The translations under genes were made by a program, and so were the position numbers. From positions 1 through 17,709 of the forward strand of contig CACYDK010000168.1 in assembly GCA_902773155.1 (NCBI GenBank): a DNA stretch of 17,709 nucleotides. The letters run 5' to 3'. The DNA is from an uncultured Ruminococcus sp. Its GTDB lineage: Bacteria; Bacillota; Clostridia; Oscillospirales; Acutalibacteraceae. Shown here one piece after another: positions 2,832-6,998 of this stretch; the first letter of the stretch is position 1; every line of letters begins with the position of its first letter. Below the pieces are notes generated by a model, which was not told the DNA's origin, did no database searches, and was given only the letters and a program-made list of their open reading frames with translations.

Positions 2832-2895
2832 TTTGCGCCTTACCTGCCCGCAGTAAGGTGGTAAAAATGCTAAAAAACATTTGCGGGAAGAAAGG
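2832..2895 (+). ncRNA. Candidate riboswitch-like H-type pseudoknot before argG
   Basis: Stem P1: TTTGC (2832-2836) with GTAAA (2861-2865), and GCCTTAC (2837-2843) with GTAAGGT (2853-2859), one bulged G at 2860. Loop bases CCCGCA (2847-2852) pair with TGCGGG (2882-2887), making P2, which would stack directly on P1. The strand linking them (2866-2881) is A-rich and has a possible 4-bp stem AATG/CATT. The 3' end of P2 abuts the ribosome-binding sequence GAAAGG (2890-2895), so forming P2 should affect ribosome access. The same fold with compensating changes occurs before argC. The RNA structure is well supported by two-copy covariation; ligand or protein partner unknown. Confidence 0.7.
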
Positions 2896-2897
2896 TA

Positions 2898-4133
2898 ATG
2901 GAGATCATTATGGCAGACAACAAGATCAAAAAGGTAGTACTCGCTTATTCAGGCGGTCTCGATACTTCAATCATCATTCCGTGGTTAAAGGAAAACTATG
3001 ACAACTGCGAGGTAATCGCGGTATCCGGCAACGTCGGTCAGGCCGACGAGCTCGAGGGTCTTGAGGAGAAGGCTATTGCCACCGGCGCCTCAAAGCTTTA
3101 CATCGAGGACCTGAACAAGGAATTCGTAGAGGAGTATGTATATCCCACAGTAAAGGCCGGAGCTGTATACGAGGGCAAGTATCTGCTCGGAACATCCTTT
3201 GCGCGTCCGATCATCGCCAAGCGTTTGGTGGAGATCGCTCTTAAGGAGGGCGCCGATGCTATTTGTCACGGCTGTACCGGCAAGGGCAACGATCAGGTTC
3301 GTTTTGAGCTCGCTATAAAGGCCTACGCTCCCGATATGAAGATCATCGCTCCCTGGCGCGTATGGGAATTCAAGAGCCGCGAGGAGGAGATCGCCTACGC
3401 TGAGGCCAAGAAGATCCCGCTCAAGATCAACCGTGAGACAAACTATTCAAAGGACAAGAACCTCTGGCATCTGAGCCACGAGGGACTCGACCTCGAGGAT
3501 CCGGCCAACGAGCCTATGTATGAGAAGGAAGGCTTCCTCGAGATGGGAGTTTCACCGCTTCAGGCTCCCGATGAGCCCGAGTATGTTACGATCCACTTCG
3601 AAAAGGGCGAGGCAAAGAGCGTAAACGGCGTTGAGATGGACGCGGTGAGCGTTGTTCAGAAGCTTAACGAAATCGGCGGCAAGAACGGTATCGGTATCAC
3701 CGACATCGTGGAGAACCGTCTCGTGGGCATGAAGGCTCGCGGAGTATACGAGACTCCCGGCGGTACGATCCTCTACGCCGCGCACAGCAAGCTTGAGGAG
3801 ATCTGCCTCGACAAGGATACACAGCATTATAAATCCGTGCTCGCGATCAAGTTCTCGGAGCTCGTTTACGACGGAAAATGGTACACTCCTCTGCGCGAGG
3901 CGCTCTCGGCCTTCGTCGACAGCACTCAGGAGTATGTAACGGGCGACGTAAAACTCAAGCTCTACAAGGGCAATATCATCGACGCCGGAGTTACCAGTCC
4001 GTATTCGCTCTATGACGAGGAAATCGCGACCTTTGATGAGGACGAGGTTTACGATCAGAACGACAGCGCAGGCTTCATCAACCTCTTCGGTCTCCCGATC
4101 AAGGTTCGCGCCAAGAAGGGCTTAATAAAGTAA
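2898..4133 (+). CDS. argG: Argininosuccinate synthase
   Basis: Joins citrulline and aspartate with ATP to give argininosuccinate, the penultimate step of arginine synthesis, in the cytoplasm. The N-terminal nucleotide-binding motif AYSGGLDTS (16-24) is intact, followed by the family blocks [11 protein letters not shown] and [19 protein letters not shown], and the length (411 aa) is normal. Two in-frame ATGs are possible: 2898, only two bases after GAAAGG, and 2910, which has GGAG at a standard 7-nt spacing and gives the usual [17 protein letters not shown]-terminus (407 aa). The later start matches the family better; the first keeps the same two-base gap from GAAAGG as argC. The gene follows an ArgR-type box, a sigma-A promoter and a structured leader, and is separated from argH by a 338-nt hairpin-rich gap. 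Confidence 0.97.
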
Positions 4134-4287: not shown

Positions 4288-4448
4288 AATGTCCCCGCCT
4301 CTATAGGCGGCCATTATCTAAATACAGTGGTGGAATACAATCCCCCACTGAATTCGCAGTGCTATGAACTGCTTGCTTTGATAAAAGCAAAGCTTTGAAC
4401 AGAAACTATACTAACAGAGACGAGAAGCGAAATGCGCGCAGGGCGCGC
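4288..4448 (+). promoter_or_regulatory. Hairpin-rich leader of argH
   Basis: Successive short stems fill this stretch: CCGCC/GGCGG (4295-4310), CAGTGGTGG with CCCCCACTG (4325-4350, one mismatch), GCAGT/ACTGC (4356-4372), TTGCTTT/AAAGCAA (4373-4390) and GCGCGC/GCGCGC (4434-4448). The last is followed by CTTTATT and sits about 20 nt before the argH ATG, so it looks like an attenuator or a gate on the ribosome site. A TATACT (4407-4412) could be a -10 box but has no convincing -35. The pseudoknot found before argG and argC is absent here. Confidence 0.45.
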
Positions 4449-4471
4449 CTTTATTAAAATGAGGTGAATTT

Positions 4472-5842: not shown

Positions 5843-5882
5843 AGACAGTAAAGTGTGAAAACCACTCTAATTCATATTTACA

Positions 5883-5952
5883 TTTACGCCTTATCCGCCC
5901 ACGATAAGGCTGTAAATACAATAAATCAAAAAACTGTTTGTGGGCGGAAAGG
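5883..5952 (+). ncRNA. Candidate riboswitch-like H-type pseudoknot before argC (second copy)
   Basis: Stem P1: TTTAC (5883-5887) with GTAAA (5912-5916), and GCCTTAT (5888-5894) with ATAAGGC (5904-5910), one bulged T at 5911. Loop bases CCCACG (5898-5903) pair with TGTGGG (5939-5944); CCG (5895-5897) can also pair with CGG (5945-5947). The linker 5917-5938 is A-rich with a possible ACA/TGT stem. Against the argG copy, the P1 closing pair C-G becomes T-A, a wobble G-T becomes G-C, a P2 pair G-C becomes A-T and a T-A becomes C-G. The strand ends at GGAAAGG, the ribosome site of argC. Confidence 0.7.
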
Positions 5953-5954
5953 CT

Positions 5955-6998
5955 ATGAAAACTATGATAAAAGCCGGAATCGTCGGAGCTACTGGTTACG
6001 CGGGCTGTGAGCTCGTCCGCCTTATCTCCGCTCATCCTCAGGCCGAGATATCGGCCGTAAGCTCCGTAAGCTTCGAGGGCAAAAAGCTCTCCGAGGTCTA
6101 CCCGAGCTACATATATTTGAACGATATGGTTTGCGGCACAGCCGCCGAGGTAGTGGAAAAAAGCGACGTTGTTTTTGCCGCTCTTCCTCACGGGCTCAGC
6201 CAGGAGCTGGCCGCCGACTGCAAGAAAAACGGGGTCAAGTTTATCGATCTCGGCGCGGATTTCCGCCTCGAGAGCGAGGAGGAGTACGCTGAATGGTACG
6301 GCGGAGCCTTCCTCGACAAGGCTCTTCACGAGGAGGCCGTCTACGGGCTTCCCGAGTTTTTCCGCGACAAGATAAAGGGCAGTGATATCGTGGCCAATCC
6401 CGGCTGCTACACGACCTGCTCGCCGTTGGCGCTGGCTCCGGCTGTCGTTAATGGCCTGATCGAGATGAAGGGTATAATATGCAACTGCGCGAGCGGAGTT
6501 ACCGGAGCCGGCAGAAAGCCCGTTCAGGGAAACCACTACCCCGAGCTCAACGAGGGCTTCCACGCCTACAAGGTCGCTTCTCACCGCCACACTCCCGAGA
6601 TAGAGCAGACGCTCTCCAAGCTCTCCGGCGAGAAGGTGACTCTCACCTTCGTGCCTCATCTTCTCCCCGTGAACCGCGGTATCCTCGCGACCTGCTACGC
6701 CGATCTAAAGGAAGGCGTGACCTATGAGCAAATAAGAGCCGCCTACGAGGATTACTACAGGGACGAGTATTTTGTCCGCGTGCTTCCCGAGGGGATGTGC
6801 GCCGACATTCACAACATAAAGTACAGCAATTTCTGCGATATCAGCGTTCACTTTGACCCGCGCGCCCGCAAGCTCATCGCCTGCGCCGCTATAGATAATA
6901 TGGTCAAGGGCGCCGCCGGTCAGGCCGTTCAGAATATGAACATTCTCTTCGGGCTTGACGAAAAAACCGGGCTCGAGATCGTTCCCCCGGCGTTTTAG
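5955..6998 (+). CDS. argC: N-acetyl-gamma-glutamyl-phosphate reductase
   Basis: Reduces N-acetylglutamyl phosphate to the semialdehyde with NADPH. It has the Rossmann motif GIVGATGYAGCELVRLI at the N-terminus, the active-site cysteine in ANPGCYTT (Cys151 counted from the first ATG), and the histidine-containing segment KVASHRHTPEIEQ; length about 347 aa is normal. The first ATG (5955) is only two bases after GGAAAGG; a second at 5964 would give MIKAGIVGATGYAG, the usual family N-terminus, at 11-nt spacing. An upstream GTG at 5940 is inside the pseudoknot and is rejected. It heads the tightly packed argC-J-B-GNAT-D-F run (gaps of 2 to 15 nt), so the pseudoknot before it could control all six genes. 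Confidence 0.97.
   Translation: MKTMIKAGIVGATGYAGCELVRLISAHPQAEISAVSSVSFEGKKLSEVYPSYIYLNDMVCGTAAEVVEKSDVVFAALPHGLSQELAADCKKNGVKFIDLGADFRLESEEEYAEWYGGAFLDKALHEEAVYGLPEFFRDKIKGSDIVANPGCYTTCSPLALAPAVVNGLIEMKGIICNCASGVTGAGRKPVQGNHYPELNEGFHAYKVASHRHTPEIEQTLSKLSGEKVTLTFVPHLLPVNRGILATCYADLKEGVTYEQIRAAYEDYYRDEYFVRVLPEGMCADIHNIKYSNFCDISVHFDPRARKLIACAAIDNMVKGAAGQAVQNMNILFGLDEKTGLEIVPPAF

Follow-up and report, generated by a model that had tools for sequence, protein, structure and literature searches.

The leaders of argG and argC in this stretch of Ruminococcus sp. DNA (17,709 nucleotides, hereafter the window) are probably diverged copies of a dispersed, non-coding, mobile leader RNA that carries its own pseudoknotted ribosome-binding site. 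Dozens of copies of the element precede unrelated genes in Clostridia, which argues against an arginine sensor and for an apparently mobile piece of RNA. The element behaves as a small mobile repeat and as a leader RNA together.

The argG-leader copy occupies positions 2831-2895 of the forward strand, on which all features described here lie, and its fold was read directly from the letters. P1 (2832-2865) is a 12-bp hairpin in which T2832-C2836 pairs with G2861-A2865 and G2837-C2843 pairs with G2853-T2859, leaving G2860 bulged. The P1 loop (2844-2852) pairs with 2882-2890 to form the P2 pseudoknot, which has one mismatch (G2846 against A2888), and the 3' strand of P2 continues into GAAAGG (2890-2895), the element-carried ribosome-binding site (SD2). 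An outer stem, P0, is formed by ATCTCC (2825-2830) and GGAGAT (2900-2905). The argG gene (2910-4133) starts at ATG 2910, and an additional in-frame ATG upstream, at 2898, overlaps the 3' strand of P0. The native argG Shine-Dalgarno sequence, CGGAGG (2761-2766), recognized from 29 other argG leaders, is now stranded 5' of the insert, and an HP1-like hairpin (GGCAA/TTGCC, 2765-2779), located as HP1 is in full copies, overlaps its 3' end. The argG copy retains this hairpin and P0; HP2 is not clear in it. Within 2813-2830, the 5' strand of P0 is also complementary to GGAGATT (2813-2819) upstream of it, and this pairing may compete with P0.

The second copy (5882-5952), identified from its letters and by a covariance model, precedes argC (5964-6998, start ATG 5964). 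Its P1 pairs 5883-5887/5888-5894 with 5904-5910/5912-5916, the bulged base being T5911 at the spot equivalent to G2860; its P2 pairs 5895-5903 with 5939-5947, and its GAAAGG lies at 5947-5952. The sequence-only reading had described P1 with a bulge at the same place in both copies, P2 between the P1 loop and a strand touching the Shine-Dalgarno sequence, and six paired base changes between the copies. All of these are present in the two leaders, the base changes as laid out in a pair table. The linker stem AATG/CATT that it also proposed can be formed by the argG letters, but by eye it has no kept equivalent in the family alignment A4 described below. P0 had been missed, as had two upstream hairpins of full-length copies.

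Full copies are ~165-180 nt long and core-only copies ~70-100 nt. From the 5' end, a full copy consists of the native Shine-Dalgarno sequence, HP1 (typical arms TAGTGTGA..TCACACTA), a TTTATATTG stretch, HP2 and the 5' strand of P0; these are followed by P1 with its bulged base, an A/T-rich linker, the 3' strand of P2, GAAAGG, CTAT, the 3' strand of P0, ~3 bases and the ATG. The first G of GAAAGG doubles as the closing base of P2. GAAAGG is near-invariant from the genus to the class, which should be read cautiously because it was itself part of the models used to find the copies, and conserved unpaired bases are few apart from GAAAGGCTATG.

Covariation among three copies alone was not clearly above that of shuffled alignments (82 of 500 shuffles reached it). 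We then have the much larger alignment A4 of 83 copies, made up of the first 80 by score of 117 full copies (251 nhmmer matches minus repeats and partials) and three from the window's genome. In A4, 94.2% of the HP2, P0, P1 and P2 cells are paired, both sides change in 21 of 41 pairs, and 197 cells carry double changes against 59 in shuffles; every measure was reached in 0 of 500 shuffles, and no slid register matched either. Double changes occur in six of the seven P0 pairs, and pair 55/145 is T-A in 37 copies and G-C in 34, much as HP2 pair 8/46 is T-A in 37 and C-G in 36. An alignment of 29 copies from other orders of the class (A6), fitted to P2 and not to P0 or P1, showed double changes in 14 of 21 P0, P1 and P2 pairs (5 of 7 in P0) and 44 double-change cells against 14.2 in shuffles, with four of five measures at 0/500 and the fifth at 1/500. 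P0 was paired in 70.6% of the A6 cells because core-only copies seem to be without it. Helices P0, P1, P2 and HP2 are maintained by compensatory change, as in a structured cis-acting leader RNA, and the family bears out the earlier proposal that an H-type pseudoknot is conserved at the ribosome-binding site.

The structure is well supported and has no counterpart in Rfam, in agreement with the earlier view that the fold falls outside the recognized classes. Rfam 15 gave no match at E ≤ 1 over the whole window or to the element in further loci, and none to the element at E ≤ 10 in 15 further loci. Matches to V_AS7 (L178), Thr_leader (L069) and STnc370 (L307) do not overlap the element, and a known Rfam class was rejected; matches to tRNA and to a plastid family (both in L173) and five weak hits at E ≤ 10 likewise lie outside it. 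As a separate observation, the V_AS7 match (L178:4588-4756) reaches 85.6 bits against a cut-off of 90 in a clostridial bin, V_AS7 being a Vibrio RNA family. The 'PGK motif', a further candidate, was compared through Rfam alone and gave no match there. A literature search returned no title describing the element, which could still be a motif named in the Weinberg 2017 survey and missing from Rfam 15. The available portions of PMC6429828 and PMC11109978 do not mention it.

The position of the copies relative to genes is nearly constant. Among 103 copies (105 matches of the three-copy covariance model described below, minus the two weakest), 96 have the start of a same-strand ORF within 16 nt, counting ORFs of at least 60 aa, or 25 aa if running off the contig. 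An opposite-strand start lies within that distance in only 6 of 103, and all six are also among the 96. One of the 96, the first of the tandem pair in L098, leads into the second copy and not into a gene. As for the seven copies with no near start, one is at a contig end (L087), one is the first of a tandem pair (L104), one is followed by a 50-codon frame and then a stop (L085), one is a weak match (L025), and the remaining three have starts at 41, 130 and 91 nt (L096, L071 and L059, respectively). There were 10 frame instances in which the core lies within a stop-free frame of at least 150 codons. Position and strand before the start codon are nearly constant, as they are in leader RNAs. In addition, a Shine-Dalgarno-like motif stands directly 5' of HP1 in 56 of 117 copies, compared with 9-17 of 115-117 in intervals farther upstream.

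The ~100 downstream ORFs look unrelated by eye (rimM-, alaS-, glnS-, trpS- and rbfA-like genes, lipoproteins, response regulators), and no functional theme emerged from this inspection. In the window's genome, an NCBIfam scan of 20 downstream proteins matched 15, with leuB, rpe, ispF, purM, purD and thioredoxin above the curated cut-off; purL (truncated by a contig end) and an asparagine synthase-like protein scored less than this. The presence of pur, leu and arg genes is perhaps a hint that copies in this genome favor biosynthetic genes. There, purM and purD lie ~3.7 kb apart with one copy each (L060, G000:C175), and purL (L053) likewise has one.

A pattern search of the window's genome located a first extra copy before a transglutaminase-like gene (Pfam), and a covariance model (R1) was built from the argG, argC and transglutaminase-like copies. 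R1 found 28 copies in the 1.54-Mb genome of the window and 18, 17, 15 and 14 in four other species of the genus, with fewer elsewhere; 14 of 59 genomes were positive. A model of the full element (R2) matched 66 of 120 sampled genomes of the genus, 12 of them with at least 18 copies, and 8 of 394 genomes of the order, the window's genome being one of those eight. A model of the core (R3) matched 49 of 391 genomes and 36 of 223 genera of the class Clostridia, a set in which matches with E ~1e-5 may include chance ones. In that sample, 48 of the 49 positive genomes belong to other orders, and the window's genome was the sole match from its own order. Copy numbers per genome from R2 and R3 are lower bounds (28, 8 and 10 candidates were scored per genome in the genus, order and class sets, respectively). 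A pattern scan of named genomes returned at least 116 stretches, and among the 80 listed the titles were Ruminococcus, Oscillospiraceae, Clostridiales, Eubacteriales, Clostridia or 'bacterium', with many rumen or gut sources. Neither the exact pattern nor one 161-nt query matched the phage, plasmid and viral sets, a search that diverged copies could escape.

Copies in other genera of the family have the same architecture in different letters, with P2 strands CCGGCTAC/GTAGCCGG instead of CCGCCCAC/GTGGGCGG and a different HP2. At the level of the class, full copies are mixed with bare cores of P1, P2 and GAAAGG, and the ORFs 3' of them resemble, by eye, serS, fba, pgk, guaA, murA and gatA. Two core-type copies (L036 and L412), from two families of the class, both precede fba-like genes (by eye), a shared or a repeated association.

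Comparison of orthologous leaders shows that copies are gained or lost between related genomes. At argG, the window's genome is the sole carrier among 30, and the element is absent from all 29 other nearest orthologues, several of them 95-97% identical in protein; their leaders read GGAGG, 5-8 nt, ATG. At argC, 17 regions were fetched, and 14 of the 15 relatives in which the gene was found are without the element; the exception, G005, has a full copy that diverged differently from that of the window, so that 2 of 16 are filled when the window is included. The argC leader of G082 (L432), which has no detected element, ends 3' in GAAAGGTTATGAAATTTATG, which a lost copy may have left behind. For dtd, two of the 30 nearest orthologues are filled, in the sister genomes G001 and G121, and no copy was found in the other 28; for an ACT-domain gene, 2 of 30 are filled. 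The cleanest site came from a DNA comparison of G121 with G001, in which a 164-bp insertion splits AATAAAGGAAGAG from TATTATGC. The interrupted site, AAAGGAAGAG followed by TATTATG, places the insertion between the native Shine-Dalgarno sequence and the ATG. A second site in the G121/G001 region was not resolvable because the intergenic regions differ. The single cleanly resolved site has no target-site duplication, other sites being too diverged to judge, and no terminal inverted repeats, HP1 being found at the left end alone. The element occurs, as a MITE does, in multiple short non-coding copies with filled and empty sites.

The left arm of HP1 is largely native sequence, and the right arm matches it. 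Since picking hairpins by length had skewed an earlier test of the HP1 arms, the test was repeated with a fixed GTGTGA/TCACAC core. Beyond this core, HP1 extends by 3.42 bp, as compared with 2.22 bp (sd 0.13) when right arms are swapped between copies; none of 2,000 swaps reached the observed value, 45 of the 117 copies being used. Base by base, the excess stands out most at positions 2 to 4 and is slight farther out. In L102, a 16-bp HP1 stem takes in the last codons of the upstream reading frame, as the translated frame confirms. Selection to hide the native Shine-Dalgarno sequence could produce this match, and so, equally, could quasi-palindrome correction by template switching.

In a tree of the copies (L025, L113 and L114 left out and one row, L239, added), in which many forks are unresolved, copies cluster by genome overall, with 44 label changes compared with 65.1 in shuffles (0/200). 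Near-identical copies precede unrelated genes within G005, and five G005 copies before unrelated genes form one supported clade; those of G018 do not cluster (15 changes, 15.1 shuffled). The two orthologous dtd copies fall apart in the tree, so that this spot may have seen conversion or more than one insertion. Tandem arrays hold up to four copies 158-159 bp apart, and in L104 and L098 the second copy starts immediately 3' of the GAAAGGCTAT of the first. As for a moving enzyme, Y1_Tnp (PF01797) occurs in 63 of 120 genomes and in 6 of the 12 with at least 18 copies, and reverse transcriptase (PF00078) in 48 of 120 and in 2 of the 12, so neither seems to be needed in the resident genome, and neither follows copy number; the comparison assumes that three 120-genome samples are identical, with match-free genomes partly listed. 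The idea of a group II intron, drawn from the first bases alone (a GTGTG 5' end), was dropped.

From the fold and the insertion site, a sequence of events can be proposed. The transcribed element would form the P1/P2 pseudoknot closed by P0, leaving AAAGG unpaired between P2 and P0. GAAAGG is complementary to the 16S 3' tail CCUUUC, and with this complementarity it would be the working Shine-Dalgarno sequence for an ATG usually 11-16 nt downstream. A nearer ATG, 2 nt past GAAAGG, lies at P0 and is out of frame in some copies; it is too close for use with GAAAGG. The ribosome would then initiate from the element-carried site on the ATG just past P0, and the host gene would thus remain expressed with its native Shine-Dalgarno sequence ~165 nt away, often part-paired into HP1. 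More tentatively, and with rather less than even confidence, we suggest a new start-site-targeting mobile element of Clostridia. It would integrate in one orientation between Shine-Dalgarno and ATG, pair the displaced native site into a hairpin matched to the locus, and substitute a pseudoknotted ribosome-binding site, thereby bringing dozens of unrelated genes under one portable translational control element.

The sequence-only reading had taken the pseudoknot as a sensor of arginine or a pathway intermediate. Such a riboswitch would fit the pair of copies in one arg cluster, the filled argC of G005 and the possible remnant at argC of G082. However, 26 more copies lie in the window's genome, including those before leuB, rpe, ispF, purM, purD and thioredoxin, and none of 29 relatives has the element at argG, while 14 of 15 are without it at argC. 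Gene context and orthologues contradict the arginine riboswitch, which we rejected as very improbable. The absence of the fold from relatives' leaders, named beforehand as what would refute the proposal, was found for an argG/argC riboswitch; it does not extend to the RNA structure itself. A riboswitch or protein-binding leader with a broad regulon, similar to c-di-GMP or ribosomal-protein leaders, is a different matter: here a signal would drive P2 folding to hide or show GAAAGG, and genes would quickly gain or lose the module. The pseudoknot abutting the Shine-Dalgarno sequence, the strong covariation in genus and class and the sense position before genes all accord with it. Housekeeping genes (pgk-, fba-, serS- and guaA-like by eye) that follow core-only copies point the same way, and a regulon would equally give the copies before argG, argC, leuB, purL, purM and purD in the window's genome. 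Nevertheless, we consider it quite unlikely, in view of the ~100 downstream ORFs with no theme by eye, the argG, argC, dtd and ACT-gene orthologues that mostly are without the element, the near-identical G005 copies before unrelated genes and the few conserved unpaired bases besides GAAAGGCTATG.

Size, copy number, the absence of an ORF and the presence/absence pattern are also what a classical MITE would show, moved in trans by an insertion-sequence transposase and left at start codons through selection alone. The resolved site has neither terminal inverted repeats nor a target duplication, though, and the sense bias (96 compared with 6 of 103) and the helices conserved across genera and orders speak against it as well; we regard this reading as unlikely. 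An assembly artefact was also weighed, most of the records being bins and some of the contigs (L113, L114) breaking off at a copy. Copies lie inside contigs from many separately named studies, and orthologous dtd insertions are found in two separate bins (G001 and G121), which makes an artefact extremely improbable. We favor the dispersed mobile leader RNA.

If this holds, ordinary and probably essential genes in many genera of Clostridia have had their ribosome-binding sites exchanged for that of a non-coding element time and again, apparently without host death. The copies would form a natural library of one RNA leader before many genes, with which the effect of a pseudoknot on initiation can be tested, and they would point to a possible start-site-specific integration system. 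They also caution that finding a covarying pseudoknot in two leaders of one pathway does not make it a riboswitch of that pathway.

Other repeats were noticed along the way. One further dispersed repeat joins an HP2-like hairpin to a terminator-like one downstream of it. It lies between convergent genes at 717-795 of the window and also occurs at ~90-202 of L110, where it has an inverted flank (CCTATAAAGCAA / TTGCTTTATAGG); window positions ~4420-4455 hold its latter, terminator-like part only. Another repeat of ~100 bp (L336:3965-4070) has 43 listed matches in G001, one in G030 and none in G088 or G103, 40 candidates being scored per genome. In L382, 5' of argG, the contig start resembles a sequencing adapter (the Nextera motif), and the bin may hold untrimmed reads.

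Among known systems, preQ1 and SAM-II riboswitches have an H-type pseudoknot whose 3' strand abuts the Shine-Dalgarno sequence, and the element shares this design. Unlike them, it is mobile and present in dozens of copies per genome, with no gene theme seen and no Rfam match. The mobile or repeat candidates of structured-RNA surveys, as one survey describes them, often have transposase-type genes nearby and inconsistent orientation (PMC11109978). The element is likewise a structured motif with many copies per genome, but its copies almost always face the same way, and the comparison of two enzyme families across genomes tied no transposase to it. Small mobile repeats or MITEs such as ERIC, YPAL, RUP and Correia are, according to a review, shorter than 200 bp, encode no protein, have many copies per genome with filled and empty sites, and may fold as RNA in mRNA (PMC2229807). 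The element is similarly short, non-coding and multicopy with filled and empty sites; in contrast to them, it has neither terminal inverted repeats nor a target duplication at the resolved site, and it is sense-oriented before start codons with its ribosome-binding site in a covarying pseudoknot. The TAACTGA heptamers of Beggiatoaceae are reported to be direct repeats with many copies within a few nt of start codons, patternless downstream functions and little Shine-Dalgarno character (PMC4679880). Copies of the element also lie near start codons of genes with patternless functions, but the element differs from these heptamers in being a conserved fold that carries a Shine-Dalgarno sequence.
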